Shown: positions 8,537 to 31,260 of the stretch, piece by piece | How the letters are laid out: the number at the start of each line of letters is the position of its first letter | How positions within the stretch are numbered: position 1 is the first letter of the stretch | NCBI GenBank assembly: GCA_011039385.1 | Contig: DRBO01000160.1 | Coordinates: 1 to 34,194 of the forward strand | From: Chloroflexota bacterium | Lineage (GTDB): Bacteria; Chloroflexota; Anaerolineae; Anaerolineales; UBA11858 | Direction of reading: 5' to 3' | Length of the DNA stretch: 34,194 bases | Notes under the pieces: model-generated | What the model saw: the letters and a program-made list of their open reading frames with translations, nothing else | Databases searched by the model: none | Told to the model about the DNA's origin: nothing | Position numbers and translations under genes: made by a program

Positions 8537-11422
8537 CTACTGGATCACACTGAACTCTACGCTAAGTTCCGCCTTATTGCCTGCCTGATCCAGCGCCCTC
8601 ACAACCAGATCATGAGACCCAAGGACCAGCTGCCAGGGAACAATGAAAGGACTGATACGCCTGGATGCCAGCAGGGTGTCATTCATAAAAAAATCCACCT
8701 CTTCAATTTCTGCGGGATTGGTAAATTGTACTTCCAGTAAAAGGTCTTCTCCCTTCTGAAAGGTAATCTTGCCATCAAAAAGATCAGTGACCAGAACAAA
8801 TTCCGGGGGTGTATTATCAACAGATACGATCAGTGATCTCTTCTGGATTTGCTGGTTCTCCTGAATAACCACTAGCTGCAAGGCGTAAATCCCTTCCGCC
8901 AGATCGCTCGTGTCCCAAGTTCCAAGGCTTCGATTCTCGGCCGGGGAAGTGATATCCTCTCCTATCTGCAGCCAGGAACGCGGATTCAAACCAATCCCAT
9001 ACTGCAGTCGAGCCGAGACAAACCCCTCTTCCGGTATAGAGCCACTTATCCTCACCCTGCCCCGCACAAAAGACAGATTGTCTGGCGTTGTCAGGCGAAG
9101 CGCATCGTCATCCTGGTTGGCGTCCTGCAAATCGAATAAAACTGGAGGGACTTCAATCCCCGCGGTTTCCGCCCAGGTGTCCGCTAGCGGTGGCACATTA
9201 AGGTAGACGCGTTCTTCTATCTGTGCGGCAGGCGTAAAGACAGATGCCAATAGCCCTGTTTCGCGGTTGACTTCTAAAGCCTGGTAAAGCCCATCCAGCC
9301 CCAAAGGTTCATTCCCTTGAATGAAAACCTCGCGAACGATCCGAGGGCAAAATTCTGTCGGAAGATCGCCAGATGGATAACAGACATCTTGGGTGATAAT
9401 GCCTGGGGGCATCTCCCACTCTTCAGCCTTAAAATCCTGGGAAACATATTGGGTGACCGCTCGCCATAAATCGGCAGAGATTTCAACCGGATCGATGCCT
9501 ATCCTTTCCACCTCTGGAGCAAGCCCGCCAGTCCAGGCACCTACCACGATCTGTGGGGTGTAGCCAATCACCCAACCAGACTGTCCACCGGGTACATAGC
9601 CAGTTTTTACGCCTGCAGGCCGGCCAATGCGGAACACATCGCTTGTTTGAGGATCCAGCCAAGCTTCCTTGTCGCTTAAGACATGATTGACCAGGTATGC
9701 TAATTCCTCATTGATGACCTTTTTTTCCAGCAGATAATTGTTTTGGGAATAATCCAGGCCTGCCTGGTCTTCTATATGCAAGATCCCCACCGGTTTTATT
9801 TCTAGGCCTGTTGCATCAACCGCCCTGCCCTTTAGATAACCTCGATTTACAAACACCCCAAAACCCTGCAGCAGATCAGTCATCTTCAAGGGTGAATTCT
9901 CAGTAGCAGATAGACTGGTCAGATTTGTACCTGCTGGAATAGAAAACCCAAAAAGCCCTAGGGTGCTTCGGAATCGGGGAGAACCCTGAGTATCAAGTAA
10001 TTGTTCTGCCGGCGAAAGCAAATCATTTACCAGTGCGGTGCGCATGTTGACAGGGCCCAGGAACTCTTCCTCTCTGTTTGTCGTTGGATGCAGATCGGTG
10101 AAGATCAAATCGCGTTCAGGAAGAGGGATATCCCACACCAGTGAGGCGGGTTCAAAACCCTGTGTGAAAGAATTGAGGTACAAATAAGGGGTGATCAGAG
10201 TGCCAGGATCACGGGGTTTGTCCAGGCTGGCGGAATCCCCGGACTCAGTTACCCCAACCATCCCCAGCAGTTCCCCCGTGAAGGGATCGTACACCACCAG
10301 ATCCATTTCCAAGGGGTCATTGAGCTCCAGGTAAGGGCCGCTGTACCTGGGGAGCAGCCTGGCAGCTTCGCAACCAGATCCCAGCTGAAGATCCTGCTCA
10401 TAAACCCGCTGGCGCATGATTTCCAGCGTACAGGTTAATGCATCTTGCAGCTCACCATTCAGCGTGGAAATGATATCCAAGCCGCCACGAAGCAGCCGTT
10501 CCTCAGGAATAGATTCTCCTGCTTCAGCTAACACATAGGACACAAATGCGGGGGGGGACAAGTCATCATCAGACTCTGGATCCGCATAAATTAGCCTGGC
10601 CCTGGCTGCCCTATCCGCCTCACCTGAAGAGAGAAAACCAGCCTCGGCCATATGCTCCAGGACTTCGGCCTGATTTTCCCGGGCCGCTACAGGAGCGTCC
10701 TGTGGATTCAGGGCAGGAAAAATGGCCGCAGCAGCCAGCATAGCAGATTCACCCAGATTCAGATCCCCCAAATCCTTTCCAAAATAAAATTCTGCTGCCT
10801 GGGCAACCCCATAGATCTGATTGCCGTAGTAGGCACTGTTGAGATACCATTCGAGGATTTTTTCCCTGCCATAGGTAGCGATGACTTGGTCTGCCAGCAA
10901 ATGTGTCCGGATCTGATAATAAGGGTGGTCCAGTTCCTGCCAGAGAAGCAACTCTTTCACAAGGATCTCGGGGAATGGATCCTCTCCTCCATCCAGAATA
11001 TTGACCCAAAAAGAATCCGATCGCTGGAAGTAATCTGGGTCAACGGCGGCCAGAGTCGCCAGAATCAAATCCTCTGGCACCTCACTGAAAAATATGGTTT
11101 CCCCATCTGTGATGGCTGAATATCGCCGGACGGCAATGGCTGGATTGTCAAATCTCCACAGGACTCGCACTCCATCCCGATCGAGTATCCGGGAGGGTTC
11201 CAGCAAGGACCCGCTGATGGGATCGAGCAGGACTTCCAATTCTTGGGGAGATGGCAGATCCTCGGTAATCTCTGTGTAGAGGCTGACTCCATAAATCACA
11301 CCCGCTGAGGCCAGAACGCTGACCACCGCCGCAAGTAGAAAACCGATCGTTCCCAGGGGATTGGATCGGCTTTTCGCCTGTCTCTTCTTTCGAAACCGCA
11401 GGAGATGCAGTTGATATCCCAT
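8537..11422 (-). CDS. Class A penicillin-binding protein-like protein (GT51 + transpeptidase fold, degenerate catalytic motifs) with C-terminal Ig-like domains
   Basis: 961 aa; N-terminal TM; GT51 features KILEWYLNSAYYGNQIYGVAQAAEFYFGK...LGESAMLAA; transpeptidase features GGLDIISTLNGELQDAL, PAGVKTGY..GWVIGYTPQIVVGAWTGG; SxxK position reads TLIT. Confidence 0.85.
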   Translation of the reverse strand: MGYQLHLLRFRKKRQAKSRSNPLGTIGFLLAAVVSVLASAGVIYGVSLYTEITEDLPSPQELEVLLDPISGSLLEPSRILDRDGVRVLWRFDNPAIAVRRYSAITDGETIFFSEVPEDLILATLAAVDPDYFQRSDSFWVNILDGGEDPFPEILVKELLLWQELDHPYYQIRTHLLADQVIATYGREKILEWYLNSAYYGNQIYGVAQAAEFYFGKDLGDLNLGESAMLAAAAIFPALNPQDAPVAARENQAEVLEHMAEAGFLSSGEADRAARARLIYADPESDDDLSPPAFVSYVLAEAGESIPEERLLRGGLDIISTLNGELQDALTCTLEIMRQRVYEQDLQLGSGCEAARLLPRYSGPYLELNDPLEMDLVVYDPFTGELLGMVGVTESGDSASLDKPRDPGTLITPYLYLNSFTQGFEPASLVWDIPLPERDLIFTDLHPTTNREEEFLGPVNMRTALVNDLLSPAEQLLDTQGSPRFRSTLGLFGFSIPAGTNLTSLSATENSPLKMTDLLQGFGVFVNRGYLKGRAVDATGLEIKPVGILHIEDQAGLDYSQNNYLLEKKVINEELAYLVNHVLSDKEAWLDPQTSDVFRIGRPAGVKTGYVPGGQSGWVIGYTPQIVVGAWTGGLAPEVERIGIDPVEISADLWRAVTQYVSQDFKAEEWEMPPGIITQDVCYPSGDLPTEFCPRIVREVFIQGNEPLGLDGLYQALEVNRETGLLASVFTPAAQIEERVYLNVPPLADTWAETAGIEVPPVLFDLQDANQDDDALRLTTPDNLSFVRGRVRISGSIPEEGFVSARLQYGIGLNPRSWLQIGEDITSPAENRSLGTWDTSDLAEGIYALQLVVIQENQQIQKRSLIVSVDNTPPEFVLVTDLFDGKITFQKGEDLLLEVQFTNPAEIEEVDFFMNDTLLASRRISPFIVPWQLVLGSHDLVVRALDQAGNKAELSVEFSVIQ

Positions 11423-11434
11423 AATCAGATCTTT

Positions 11435-13159
11435 TCAGCTGATTTTTTCAGCAACATATGCCATCAGCTCTCTGGCGGAGGCCAGGTTTTTTTCACTTGG
11501 ACCGCCCAGCATTGTGGCCAACTCCTCCACTCGCGCTTCCCCCTCGATCTCAAGTACTTGAATTGCCGTTCTCCCTTCGATCAGGGATTTCACCACCTGG
11601 AAATGCTGCTGGCCAAAACCGGCCAGTTGTGGGAGGTGCGTGATGCAGATCACCTGGTGCTCTGGCGTGAGGCGGTAAAGTTTTTCTCCCACAACTGCCC
11701 CTATCCGTCCCCCAATTCCTTGATCAATTTCATCAAATACCAGCGTTGAGATATGATCAGCCTGGGCAAGCACATTTTTCAAGGCAAGCATCAAGCGGGA
11801 AGTTTCTCCTCCCGAGGCTGTCTTGGCAAGGGCTTTAAGCCCCTCTCCCGGGTTGGTTTCCACCAGGAATTCAATTTTTTCAAGCCCATCAGGGTAATAT
11901 TTTACGCGTTGTCCGGTCTCATCTATGACCCCTGCTGGATCCTCCTCTGACCTGAAAGCAATATCAAATCGAGCTCCAGCCATCTTCAAGTCATTCAGCT
12001 GGTCTTCCAACTCAGCGGACAGTTGCCGTGCTCCTTCCTGTCTGGCCCGGGTTAGGTCCTGGCCACTTTGCCCAAGTTCTACCAGCAAACTCTTTTCGAT
12101 CTTAAGCAGCTCATCAATCCGAGTGTTCCTGCCTGTGATCTCGTCCAACTCCACCCTGGCTTGATCACGGTACGCGAGGATTTCAGGTATATCCTGGCCG
12201 TATTTTCTTTTCATTTCCTGGATCAAGGCCAGGCGCTCCTGGGTTTTGTCCAATTCTGCAGAATCAAATTCGAGGTTATCCAGGTAGGATCTGAGCTCCT
12301 TACCAAGCTCAAACAAACCATCACTCAAGCCTGCTGTTTTCCCCGCAAGGCCTTCCAGCACAGGATCGATCTGGAATAATTCATTAGAAGACCGAACAAT
12401 CTGACCGACCAAATCCATTACTGTAGGCTGGTTTCCAGGCGCATCATCCAGGATGGTGAGGACCTTTTGACAAAGATCGGATAATTTTTCTGCGTTCACA
12501 AGTTGATTTCGGCGTTTGGCAAGCTGTTCTTCCTCGCCTTCCTGCAATCCCGCCAGCTCGATCTCTTCGATCTGAAAAGAGAGTAAATCCTTTCGTTGGT
12601 CCGCTTCCAGGTCAATCTGCCTTAACTTTGCCAACTCCCTCTGAGTCTGGCGGAGATCAGAATAGACTTCTTGGTAAGCTTTCAGCAATTCAGCTGTATT
12701 CGCATAGCGGTCTAACAAGCCCAAATGCTGACTGACCTTCATCAAGGAGAGGTGTTCTGACTGACCATGGATATCCACCAGGGATTCACCCAGCTCGACC
12801 AGCAGGGCAACATTGGTCCGGTGACCGTTCACCCGGGCGATATTGGGCCGATCCGCCCTCATCTCACGGGTAAGGGTAAGGTATTCGGTCCCATCCAGAA
12901 TTTCCTCTTCTTTGAGGCGCTTGAGCAAACTTTCTTTGATCGTCGGGGGGATTTTAAATACCGCTTCCACACTGGCAAAATCGCTTCCCTGACGCAGGGC
13001 AGACATATCCACCCGCGAGCCAAGGAGCATTTCCAGCGCTCCCATAATGATGGATTTTCCTGCGCCGGTTTCCCCAGTCAGGATCACCAGACCGGGATTG
13101 AATTCCAATTGCAGGGAATCTATTATGGCGAAATTTTTGATGCGCAGTTCAACAAGCAT
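11435..13159 (-). CDS. recN: DNA repair protein RecN
   Basis: 574 aa; MLVELRIKNFAIIDSLQLEFNPGLVILTGETGAGKSIIMGALEMLLG; VFDEIDQGIGGRIGAVVGEKL; QVICITHLPQLA. Confidence 0.96.
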   Translation of the reverse strand: MLVELRIKNFAIIDSLQLEFNPGLVILTGETGAGKSIIMGALEMLLGSRVDMSALRQGSDFASVEAVFKIPPTIKESLLKRLKEEEILDGTEYLTLTREMRADRPNIARVNGHRTNVALLVELGESLVDIHGQSEHLSLMKVSQHLGLLDRYANTAELLKAYQEVYSDLRQTQRELAKLRQIDLEADQRKDLLSFQIEEIELAGLQEGEEEQLAKRRNQLVNAEKLSDLCQKVLTILDDAPGNQPTVMDLVGQIVRSSNELFQIDPVLEGLAGKTAGLSDGLFELGKELRSYLDNLEFDSAELDKTQERLALIQEMKRKYGQDIPEILAYRDQARVELDEITGRNTRIDELLKIEKSLLVELGQSGQDLTRARQEGARQLSAELEDQLNDLKMAGARFDIAFRSEEDPAGVIDETGQRVKYYPDGLEKIEFLVETNPGEGLKALAKTASGGETSRLMLALKNVLAQADHISTLVFDEIDQGIGGRIGAVVGEKLYRLTPEHQVICITHLPQLAGFGQQHFQVVKSLIEGRTAIQVLEIEGEARVEELATMLGGPSEKNLASARELMAYVAEKIS

Positions 13160-13160
13160 G

Positions 13161-13679
13161 TTAATTTCTTAGCTGGTGATAGATATAAAACGTGATGATC
13201 AGAGCATAAGCCAGCCGCCAAATGATCGCGACAAGTCCCCCCAGTAATCCGTAACCCTCTATCCAGTAGGTTTCATACAGGTAATAGATCGGTGGCACAA
13301 GGCTGGTTAATAATGCAGCCCCACTCATCACAAATTTCAGCAGGGGGGAACGCCGGTTTTTAATGGCTTTTTTGGTTGCCAGCACGACAAGATACCCTGC
13401 CCCTATGGCGATCAAGATGTTGTAAAAGCCAAAGTAGGCTCCCAATCGACTGCCAAACAAAGCGATCACAGCAGTGATAAACGCCGCGATCAGATGGTCA
13501 AACCATTTTGTGGTGATAAATACCTTCTGCTGAGAACGGATACAATCCGGACAGCGGTAACCCGTCGGGGTATGTGTCGCGCATTGGATGCAGATCGGTT
13601 TATTGCAGCGGTTGCAGCGCAATTGTGTTTCACGCTTGGGATGAAACGCGCAGGTAAGTGTTTGTTCAGTTTCTGACAT
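13161..13679 (-). CDS. B-box-type zinc-finger multi-pass membrane protein
   Basis: 172 aa; CAFHPKRETQLRCNRCNKPICIQCATHTPTGYRCPDC N-terminus followed by several hydrophobic segments; overlaps the nadK stop by 14 bp. Confidence 0.75.
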   Translation of the reverse strand: MSETEQTLTCAFHPKRETQLRCNRCNKPICIQCATHTPTGYRCPDCIRSQQKVFITTKWFDHLIAAFITAVIALFGSRLGAYFGFYNILIAIGAGYLVVLATKKAIKNRRSPLLKFVMSGAALLTSLVPPIYYLYETYWIEGYGLLGGLVAIIWRLAYALIITFYIYHQLRN

Positions 13680-14565
13680 TGGTTTTTTTTATGGCTGGAT
13701 TTTGGTCCATATAGGGAATCAAATTGCGATAAAAGTAGCCAGGGTCCTGGAAGCGGACAAATCGGACCATATTCTCGCTAGCGCGAATTTCTACCCGGTC
13801 ATCATTATCCACTTTGATAGCCGGCTGACCATCAATGCTGATAACAGCTTCATGGGAGGTGTGCACGGTCACAGAAATCTGGACAGACTCCTCCAGGACC
13901 AAAGATTGTTCAATAGAAAGATGCGGGGCAACTGGAACCAGGATGATATTTCTCAACTCAGGCGAAAGGATTGGCCCCCCCGCCGCCATCGCATAGGCGG
14001 TGGACCCTGTAGCGGTCGAGGCAACGATCGCGTCTGCGACTAATGTGCTCAAATGCCTGGTATTAATGAAGATTTCCAACTCAACCGGGCGGATAGTTAC
14101 GCCCCGGCTGATCACCGCATCATTCAGGGCATGCCAGCGGCCGAATTCCTTCCCCTGCCTATACAGCACAACTTCTAGCATCATGCGCTTCTCAATCCAA
14201 TAGTCGCCGGCCAGCAAGCGCTTGAGGGCTGCAGACCATTCATCACGCTGAATTTCAGTTAAAAATCCATACCTGCCCAGATTAATTCCCAGAATTGGCA
14301 CCTGGGCGGGAGCGCTGATATGGCCTGCCCTCAGCATGGTTCCATCTCCACCCAGCGCTATCAATAAGTCCTGCTGGCCGTTATTTACCCCGGTCCTGAG
14401 GATGGACTCGTCCATGCGGCCCAGAAGCACTTTTTTTCCCTGCGCTTCCAGGGAAGCACCTATCTCTTCAGCCAGGGTATATGCCTGCTCGCTTTTCGGG
14501 TGCACAGCAATCGCGATGCTGGTAAATTCAGTAAGGGCTTTTGCCATAGGGATATATTTTATCAA
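13666..14565 (-). CDS. nadK: NAD kinase (ATP-NAD/AcoX family)
   Basis: 299 aa; LLIALGGDGTMLRAGH, ILGINLGRYGFLTEI, ASTATGSTAYAMAAGGPILSPE, SIDGQPAIKVDNDDRVEI. Start may be MAKALTEF at 14547. Confidence 0.93.
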   Translation of the reverse strand: MIKYIPMAKALTEFTSIAIAVHPKSEQAYTLAEEIGASLEAQGKKVLLGRMDESILRTGVNNGQQDLLIALGGDGTMLRAGHISAPAQVPILGINLGRYGFLTEIQRDEWSAALKRLLAGDYWIEKRMMLEVVLYRQGKEFGRWHALNDAVISRGVTIRPVELEIFINTRHLSTLVADAIVASTATGSTAYAMAAGGPILSPELRNIILVPVAPHLSIEQSLVLEESVQISVTVHTSHEAVISIDGQPAIKVDNDDRVEIRASENMVRFVRFQDPGYFYRNLIPYMDQNPAIKKTNVRN

Positions 14566-15509: not shown

Positions 15510-16283
15510 TCACTTGGGGAGGACCTCGCGAGCGATCAAATCGGAGAAGCTGACTGTCAGGGCAGTATCCCCGACTGAGCGGGCGTAGACCCCAAATGAC
15601 CCGTAGATCCTTTGCTGAACCTCAGTGGAGAATTGGGAGATACCATTAATATAGATATGGATCTCATTCTCAGCAACCAGAACGGCTAACTTTGTCACGC
15701 TGGGCGCGCCCACAGGGATCGAGGCACTTCTTGTCCAGGGGTAAAGGGTCGTAGTGACACCCGATACGTACCTGTCTAGGCGGACCTCTCCACTGCAGGA
15801 AAGCGCAAAACGGTAATATTGACCGCTCCCAATCACACTGAACAGGAATCCATATTCATCGCGAGCAGAACACAACACCGGGTTGGCGGTTATCTCCGCA
15901 TAAAAATCACCCACATCAGGTTTATCCCTGGTGCCTGCAAGATAGGTCCCAGATTCATTTATGATGATATTGATCTCCCCATTCCCGATATTGATCTGCC
16001 CGCGCTCATTCTGAGGGAGTGACCATCCCTCCGGGGAGATAAATTGATCCTGATATAAGACTTCGCCCAATTCCACCATCACCCCAGGTGTGGGTGTGAT
16101 TTTCAGGGTGGGCGTTACCACTGGCGTTTCTGTTGGTGGGAACCAGATCACCGTGGGTGTACTCGTTGGAGGTGGTGTCAGGGTTATTGCAGCCGTGGGT
16201 GTGTCCTCAGCCCTGGGAGCTTCCAAATGCAGACAGGCAACCAGGAAGAAAGCGGTCAGACTGATACAGATCTTTTTCATCAT
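15510..16283 (-). CDS. Putative lipoprotein with Thr/Pro-rich linker and concanavalin-like/DUF1080-like C-terminal domain
   Basis: 257 aa; signal with FLVAC lipobox; TPTPPTSTPT linker; beta-rich C-terminal region (GFLFSVIGSGQYYRFALSCSGEVRLDRY). Ends 3 bp from the purA stop. Confidence 0.65.
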   Translation of the reverse strand: MMKKICISLTAFFLVACLHLEAPRAEDTPTAAITLTPPPTSTPTVIWFPPTETPVVTPTLKITPTPGVMVELGEVLYQDQFISPEGWSLPQNERGQINIGNGEINIIINESGTYLAGTRDKPDVGDFYAEITANPVLCSARDEYGFLFSVIGSGQYYRFALSCSGEVRLDRYVSGVTTTLYPWTRSASIPVGAPSVTKLAVLVAENEIHIYINGISQFSTEVQQRIYGSFGVYARSVGDTALTVSFSDLIAREVLPK

Positions 16284-28944: not shown

Positions 28945-31260
28945 TCAGCCTTGAAGCTGCCCTAACAATTTCTGATAGGCTTCGATGTTGGGGGGATTCA
29001 GGGTTACGATTTCTTGGATCACAGCAACAGCCTCGCTTTTTCTACCGGCATCAAGCAGCATATCACCCAAGCCATCCAGTTCTGATATGGCCTGTTCTTG
29101 CAGGCCAAGCTCTTTATAAAAATCAACCAGCCGCCGGATAATGAATTCCTCGCGAGGAATCTCAGTATTCAGGCTGGTCAGATAATCCTCAATGACCTCT
29201 TTGTCTTCCTTCGGATCATATAGCGCAAGAAATCGATCGATTTCCTGTTCAGCATCTGAGAGCTTACCCAGTCGGTAGCTTAAGTCTACAATGGATATAC
29301 TGGCCTTCCTGTTTCCAGGAGAAACCTCGCTGATCTCGGCATAGGTGGCTATTGCAGCCTCCCAATCTAAACGCTGGATATCAAGATCTGCCAGGCGCTG
29401 CAACAATTTCATCCGAACGATTTCTCCATCCGGAATTGATTTTGCCAGTGCCAGAGCCTTGACATAGGCAGATCTGGCGCTGTCCAGTTCAGCCAGTGGG
29501 AAAAAGATCTCAGCCAGATTGATGTATTCCTGGATCGCTTCTTCTTTCTGGCCATATTCCTCCAGAAGATCAATCTGTCGCTGACGGATTTCGATATTCA
29601 TGGGCTGGAGGTCAATGACCTTCTTTAACATGGTCAATGCCCGCTCCGTTTTCCCCTGGACTGTGTACACATCGGCAACCGCAAGGTATTTGGTCACTGC
29701 GCCGTCAATCTTGTTCGTAGCCATCAGAATATCGCCAATCGTGACGTGCAGAGGCAGGAAAGTGGGCGCGTTGCGCAGGGCGAAAAATGCCATTTCCATA
29801 GCTGCCCCATAATGGCCCTCCTGGACCAGCATGTTAATATTCTGATGAATGCCCATGATCTGGCTGCGGCGGTCATCCAGCAAGGCATCCAGTTGGGGAA
29901 GGATCAACCCCTCCTCACTCTTCCCTTGAGAACGCAGCTCAACCAGGATAGCCCGCCAGTCAGGCCTGAGCAGCATCTCACCTATATGGGTGCTCATCTC
30001 AATATAGGCATCACCCCCTTCCTGCTGTTCAAGATCATCCATCATCACTTCATAGAGATGGATTAGATCCTCAACATCTTCCTTGTCAGCCAGAGATGTA
30101 TCCGCAATCCGCAGGGCTTCCAGATATTCCCTGCTGGCGTCTACCCATTGTTCCATTCCGGCATAATATTGGGCCAGCAACAGACGGGAGGCAAGAGCAA
30201 AATTTTCGTGGGGCACTGATTTATTCAGGGAGCGGACGGCGCTTTCCATCCGGCCCAGGTTGCTGAATAAATAGCCCAACAAGAAATAAGCCGCCGGATT
30301 GGTATATCCCTCATCAATGGCCTTTTTGATGTTCTCTGCTGCGTCCTTTTCATTTCCTGAGGAAAAGTTCTCAATTGCCTGGGAAACGTGGAGCTTCACT
30401 GCGCTGCCATCCTCTAGAATTTCACCCGCTTCAGCGTTCCAGCTCAAGGCAGAGTCCAGATCTCGTCCCGGCCTCTTTTTACCGCTTTCAGCACCTATTT
30501 CCTCCTCAAACATCGCTTCCGCAAGAATGATCATTGCCTTATCAACAGCCTCAGCAATAGGGGTCTCATATTCCTTATCTGGTTCAGGTTTTGGGGCTTC
30601 AAGCTGCGCTGCCTCAACCTGGATCTCCTCCTCGGGCTCTTTATCAATTGGCTCAGGAATGGGCAGCTGCCGGCCCTGACGGAGTATCTCCCTGGCTCGC
30701 AGAGCGATAATATTCTCTGGTGAACATCTCAACGCTCGATCGATGGATTCGGTAGCTTTTACCGTATTTCCGCTGAGCTGCAGCAAACTTGCCGTGTGGA
30801 TATATTCACTCACCGCGAGTTTCTTTCTTCCCAGTCTCTCGTAGACCATACCCAGACGGGCGTGCGCTTTGACATTTCTAATGTCCAGCTCAAGCACACG
30901 TTTCCAGTTTTCGATAGCTTTTTGGATGTCTTCGTTCTTTAAGTGAGCTTCGGCGGCCAAGAGTGAGGCTTTCAGCGCCTCTGTGAGCTGGTTAACTTCC
31001 TTGTATATCAAGAACATTTTTTCGTACGGGGCAGGGTCATCCGGGTTAATTTCCACAGCTTTCCTGTAGGCGTCTAGCGCTTCCCGGTATTCCCGCATTT
31101 CATAATATGCCAAACCAATATTGGTCATGGCCTTAAAATTACCGGGGTCCAAATCCAGCGCCTGCTGGTAATAAACAGCAGCGTCATTCCAGTTTTTATC
31201 CCAGGCGGCAGAGTTGCCTTTCGATAACAGATCCTTCAGCTCTTGATTCAATTCAGTCAT
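28945..31260 (-). CDS. Tetratricopeptide repeat protein
   Basis: 771 aa; repeated TPR units e.g. AAVYYQQALDLDPGNFKAMTNIGLAYYEMREYREALDAYRKAVEINPDDPAPYEKM. Confidence 0.93.
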   Translation of the reverse strand: MTELNQELKDLLSKGNSAAWDKNWNDAAVYYQQALDLDPGNFKAMTNIGLAYYEMREYREALDAYRKAVEINPDDPAPYEKMFLIYKEVNQLTEALKASLLAAEAHLKNEDIQKAIENWKRVLELDIRNVKAHARLGMVYERLGRKKLAVSEYIHTASLLQLSGNTVKATESIDRALRCSPENIIALRAREILRQGRQLPIPEPIDKEPEEEIQVEAAQLEAPKPEPDKEYETPIAEAVDKAMIILAEAMFEEEIGAESGKKRPGRDLDSALSWNAEAGEILEDGSAVKLHVSQAIENFSSGNEKDAAENIKKAIDEGYTNPAAYFLLGYLFSNLGRMESAVRSLNKSVPHENFALASRLLLAQYYAGMEQWVDASREYLEALRIADTSLADKEDVEDLIHLYEVMMDDLEQQEGGDAYIEMSTHIGEMLLRPDWRAILVELRSQGKSEEGLILPQLDALLDDRRSQIMGIHQNINMLVQEGHYGAAMEMAFFALRNAPTFLPLHVTIGDILMATNKIDGAVTKYLAVADVYTVQGKTERALTMLKKVIDLQPMNIEIRQRQIDLLEEYGQKEEAIQEYINLAEIFFPLAELDSARSAYVKALALAKSIPDGEIVRMKLLQRLADLDIQRLDWEAAIATYAEISEVSPGNRKASISIVDLSYRLGKLSDAEQEIDRFLALYDPKEDKEVIEDYLTSLNTEIPREEFIIRRLVDFYKELGLQEQAISELDGLGDMLLDAGRKSEAVAVIQEIVTLNPPNIEAYQKLLGQLQG

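Follow-up and report, generated by a model that had tools for sequence, protein, structure and literature searches.

A widely conserved class A penicillin-binding protein homologue of Chloroflexota that appears to have lost both catalytic centres

Class A penicillin-binding proteins (PBPs) are classic enzymes and drug targets. Among those that bear on the protein described here is E. coli PBP1C (PbpC), a class A PBP that carries a C-terminal BiPBP_C domain and keeps its catalytic residues. The role of PBP1C is unclear; repair or an extra glycosyltransferase activity has been proposed (PMC6131605). That a PBP can also serve a structural role independent of catalysis is indicated by PBP 2B of B. 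subtilis, which still supports division when catalytically inactive (PMC5656894). Wall pseudoenzymes also occur naturally: degenerate LytM factors, DipM for example, regulate active enzymes (PMC10336132).

The 961-residue protein considered here, which we refer to as the pseudo-PBP, shares with class A PBPs of the PBP1A/PBP1C type its domain order, fold, GT51 motif 4, N-terminal membrane helix and C-terminal Ig-like domain, and differs from them by loss of both catalytic centres, the residues of which are kept in E. coli PBP1C. It differs from B. subtilis PBP 2B, which belongs to class B and is inactive solely through laboratory mutation, and from the DipM-type LytM factors, which regulate hydrolases and are unrelated in fold. 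No natural class A PBP devoid of both centres turned up in the open-licence literature on Chloroflexi PBPs or on PBPs described as inactive, pseudo or degenerate.

The gene occupies positions 8537-11422 on the minus strand of the window (the whole stretch of 34,194 nucleotides that was analysed) and its frame is unbroken. Its product has a predicted architecture consisting of one N-terminal membrane helix (residues 22-53 in the structural model, with a hydropathy peak from residue 25; 11264-11359, minus strand), a GT51 fold followed by a transpeptidase fold, and two C-terminal regions. The first of these (residues 666-870; 8813-9427, minus strand) contains a beta domain and the invariant Cys 681 and 692, and its conservation is not relaxed relative to active homologues. 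The second (residues 871-961; 8540-8812, minus strand) is an Ig-like domain with a weak Pfam match to Big_7, and BiPBP_C is found in some orthologues. A phmmer search of the PDB gives a match to PBP1A (9.6e-28) that spans both the GT51 and transpeptidase domains. The AlphaFold model, for which sequences of the pseudo clade were the only input, has a mean pLDDT of 86, and its best PDB matches by Foldseek are all class A PBPs (E 1e-26 over 703 columns). A more decayed relative (L056, family f2) no longer matches the Transpeptidase family but nevertheless models as a class A PBP (pLDDT 81), its model likewise having class A PBPs as PDB matches. All 40 pseudo members scanned match both TIGR02074 and TIGR02073; the window protein, however, reaches a small part of the curated cut-off for each (198 of 508.75 bits and 137 of 494.2 bits, respectively), and active orthologues are also below the TIGR02073 cut-off, at 417 and 382 bits. 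As judged from sequence and predicted structure, descent and fold place the pseudo-PBP in the class A PBP family, whereas activity does not, and names assigned automatically to such proteins ('PBP1A family' or 'transglycosylase domain', for instance) are misleading with regard to their activity.

Alignment with L038, the genome's own intact class A PBP (985 aa), and with 57 further active homologues fixed the register of the catalytic motifs. GT51 motif 1 reads AVDPDYFQRSD (residues 126-136; 11015-11047, all motifs being on the minus strand), with the glutamate replaced by V127, Asp128 kept and the His/Asn position occupied by R134. (The first-pass annotation had recognized the loss but had read it as Glu-Asp to Asp-Pro, a minor misregister by one residue: Glu has become Val and the Asp is retained.) In motif 2 (residues 146-153; 10964-10987; GxSTITQQ in active enzymes, more generally GxSTxxQQ) the serine is replaced by D148 and the two glutamines by E152-I153. 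In motif 3 (RKxxE; residues 169-173; 10904-10918) the R, K and E are all replaced, by Y169, Q170 and T173. Motif 4, EWYLN (residues 191-195; 10838-10852), is kept. The transpeptidase domain presents TLIT in place of SxxK (T408/T411; residues 408-411), exactly at 10190-10201 where it had been annotated, and DLL in place of SxN (D467/L469; residues 467-469; 10016-10024), the aspartate being conserved within the pseudo clade. KTG is intact in the window protein (K606-G608; 9599-9607), as had also been noted. KTG is the one element of a bifunctional enzyme that is present among the GT51 glutamate, GT51 motifs 2 and 3, SxxK, SxN and KTG. The Pfam Transgly match is confined to the second half of that domain (profile positions 73-177), and Pfam Transpeptidase has no match in the window protein. 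The initial proposal of a class A PBP homologue with both centres lost would have been undermined by a canonical SxxK or GT51 glutamate lying elsewhere in the protein. Alignment and Pfam find no canonical catalytic motif elsewhere in the 961-aa ORF, which rules out misalignment as the source of the missing motifs, and the proposal is borne out by alignment, fold and phmmer.

The degeneration is not peculiar to one genome. When the window's own genome was searched for orthologues together with those of 60 relatives from the order, each of the 61 genomes gave a match. Classed from fetched loci and their motifs, 43 of these genomes, in ten of 15 families (f1, f2, f5, f6, f7, f8, f11, f12, f13 and f14), have a dead or nearly dead version, a count that includes three genomes classed from partial sequences (G009, G011 and G039); twelve, in the five other families (f3, f4, f9, f10 and f15), have an intact orthologue, and six were assigned to neither class. 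Seven further genomes of family f11 are consistent with the pseudo class. No genome has both versions among the fetched loci, and the notion of the pseudo-PBP as an extra duplicate beside an active orthologue was rejected. An alignment of 88 rows contains 44 that lack both the GT glutamate and the SxxK lysine, 40 that have both, four that have the glutamate without the lysine and none that keeps the lysine having lost the glutamate; the lysine is accordingly absent from all 48 non-active rows and the glutamate from 44 of them. The active and pseudo labels rest on these two residues, so that the other motifs constitute an independent check, and they follow the labels almost perfectly: SxN is present in each of the 40 active rows and missing from every one of the other 48, and the active rows retain practically all other motif residues. 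Recurrence of the losses at the same positions in dozens of orthologues implies that neither chance nor sequencing error is responsible. Elsewhere in the phylum, thirteen strong matches retain the GT glutamate and SxxK; twelve belong to other classes, and the remaining one to a different family of the class. A search of genome contigs for related loci has one distant Elusimicrobia homologue as its sole match.

The variability of these sites bears on whether the protein might be a partial enzyme that works with unusual residues, Thr408 serving as nucleophile, for example, or Asp128 as general base. Of 48 rows, 43 do have Ser or Thr as the would-be nucleophile, and 37 have Asp at 128. However, the nucleophile site varies not only between Ser and Thr but also to Asn, Ala, Met and Glu, and at the SxxK lysine, SxN and GT glutamate positions the clade shows a wide assortment of unrelated residues. 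An enzyme would hardly tolerate such variation, and residual catalysis of this kind is very unlikely. The first-pass annotation's suggestion that the KTG pocket might sense beta-lactams, as would a sensor of the BlaR1/MecR1 type, fares worse. It draws on the KTG of the window protein, but at that site most orthologues have KMG, KIG, KVG or KLG, and in f8, f12 and f2 the lysine is lost as well. The SxxK lysine is gone in all; with T408/T411 in place of the Ser/Lys pair no acylation is expected, as it would be of a BlaR1/MecR1-type sensor, and the Pfam scan found no signalling domain in the window protein. We assign next to no probability to a sensor of this type. On the sequence evidence it is instead very probable that the pseudo-PBP is a pseudoenzyme, that is, a class A PBP without polymerising or crosslinking activity.

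Ancestry was analysed principally with a tree from which columns around all catalytic residues had been masked and long rows removed (all trees are 'quick' searches without bootstrap). In the masked tree a single clade (SH-aLRT 100) unites the dead proteins; it is nested inside one active class A PBP type and adjoins the active proteins of f3, f4, f9, f10 and f15. The two other class A types of these genomes are intact among the fetched loci. The tree indicates that the ancestor is an active class A PBP that is still present in the sister families, and that both chemistries were lost in the common ancestor of approximately ten families. Placement is less sure for f2, f5, f8, f13 and part of f49, which are long branches, and the unity of the main clade for its long-branch families may owe something to long-branch attraction. 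In a wider set drawn from the class, the state must have changed three times or more (in the main clade, f49 and f34/f62), with at least two losses beyond the main clade, in related orders. The f49 loss (L121 and L173) is nested among active f49 proteins; the f34/f62 loss comprises L120, L165, L166, L186 and L187. Several of these f49 and f34/f62 proteins have lost the transpeptidase lysine with the GT glutamate still present, which suggests that transpeptidase chemistry was lost first. One of them, L173 (genome G251), has SALQ at SxxK, QTG at KTG and an intact SxN, and is a possible early intermediate of loss.

In the window the pseudo-PBP gene is the last of a same-strand row that begins with NAD kinase (13666-14565, minus strand) and continues with a 172-aa zinc-finger (B-box-like) ORF (13161-13679, minus strand) and recN (11435-13159, minus strand), the pseudo-PBP starting 12 bases past the recN end. 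Downstream lie era (convergent) and then rpoB, both identified by eye. Across families, recN adjoins the pseudo-PBP in f1, f7 and f14, and G046 (f14) has recN, the zinc-finger ORF and NAD kinase all in the same order. In the remaining families the gene sits at other loci, as do the active orthologues examined. Partial conservation of the gene row supports orthology and explains little about function; as neighbours, recN, NAD kinase and era do not point to wall synthesis. In several f1 genomes (L090, L093, L102 and L105) an ORF of ~1180 aa, belonging to one common cluster, lies between recN and the pseudo-PBP or beside it. Elsewhere in the window, a 257-aa ORF without a confident family (15510-16283, minus strand) lies between ssb and the adenylosuccinate synthetase gene, and a 771-aa protein consisting mostly of tetratricopeptide repeats (28945-31260, minus strand) adjoins DNA polymerase I.

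Nei-Gojobori dN/dS is 0.12-0.22 for pairs of pseudo proteins versus 0.06-0.23 for active pairs. This similarity to active relatives, together with the full-length orthologues, upholds the first-pass annotation's view of an intact ORF under selection; the contrary prospect that it had raised, of orthologues revealing a decaying pseudogene, is not what the orthologues present. Internal stops within a few extended matches, and the relaxed constraint on the GT and transpeptidase (TP) domains, might be taken to signify a gene in slow decay that is retained through its operon position, but full-length frames in ten families across deep divergence, the low dN/dS and the differing gene neighbourhoods of other families make slow decay scarcely credible. 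With catalytic residues lost, fold kept and selection maintained across orthologues, the protein has the properties by which a pseudoenzyme is recognized.

Constraint is not distributed evenly along the protein: it is relaxed in the GT and TP domains and not in the C-terminal part, above all residues 666-760. Mean pairwise identity is 0.45 among pseudo versus 0.65 among active proteins in the GT domain and 0.39 versus 0.63 in the TP domain, compared with 0.60 versus 0.55 in residues 666-760, where pooled regional dN/dS is also lowest (0.08). Cys681 and Cys692 show no variation in any of the three class A types. In the pseudo clade, as among most of its active relatives, Cys331 and Cys351 are almost invariant. 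Other residues, e.g., Asp467, Asn466, Arg172 and Gln179, are conserved in the pseudo clade only, implying that the GT and TP domains are under changed constraint rather than free of it. An alternative role is that of a pseudoenzyme that binds lipid II or nascent glycan or peptide without turnover, as a sensor or substrate-holding subunit. Ligand binding would be in keeping with the fold retained in the model, with the frequent presence of motif 4 (EWYLN), of Asp128 and of both Lys and Gly in KxG, and with a newly conserved residue where SxN once lay, Asp467, which 34 of 43 pseudo rows share. On the other hand, GT51 motifs 2 and 3 are lost, nearly all of the proteins have a shorter segment separating motif 1 from motif 2, former active-site columns are among the least conserved, and the KTG lysine is itself dispensed with in three families. 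Ligand binding is, on balance, unlikely.

A gene that is intact and strongly selected across about ten families, with both centres lost, probably encodes a non-enzyme part of the wall machinery, and the non-enzymatic role initially offered as plausible can be rated likely on motif loss and selection on the intact ORF. We favour, with somewhat better than even confidence, a pseudoenzyme that also has a docking or regulatory role. Anchored in the membrane, the pseudo-PBP would form part of the machinery for wall synthesis and would dock onto active synthases or the wall by means of its C-terminal part and the outward faces of its old domains. Docking would position or regulate active synthases, and the pseudo-PBP can be thought of as retaining the docking and regulatory share of the work of its ancestral PBP. 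From conservation alone we infer docking, and we regard the C-terminal part as the most probable site of contact; that part, being conserved in active homologues too, could instead serve stability or wall binding.

Candidate partners are to hand. The genome (84.6% complete) encodes one intact class A PBP (on contig C166; the 985-aa protein used above for the motif register, and the second, canonical class A PBP for which the first-pass annotation had advised a search), three class B PBPs and two SEDS polymerases. With this active machinery present, wall synthesis need not depend on pseudo-PBP chemistry, and docking might be to the intact class A PBP or to SEDS with class B PBPs. Whether these proteins constitute a conserved class of doubly dead class A PBPs, having arisen at least three times in one bacterial class, with a scaffold or allosteric role in peptidoglycan synthesis that is kept over a whole order, we regard as evenly balanced. 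If so, class A PBPs carry a separable structural function that outlives their chemistry (both centres dead, order-wide, with repeated origin), and the debated non-catalytic role of PBPs becomes testable without artificial mutants. In other bacteria, PBP1C genes are known to lie beside genes for alpha-2-macroglobulin; two alpha-2-macroglobulin genes are found in this genome, on other contigs (G000:C22:11469-11735 and G000:C6:25924-26187), in frames of 1953 and 2049 aa.
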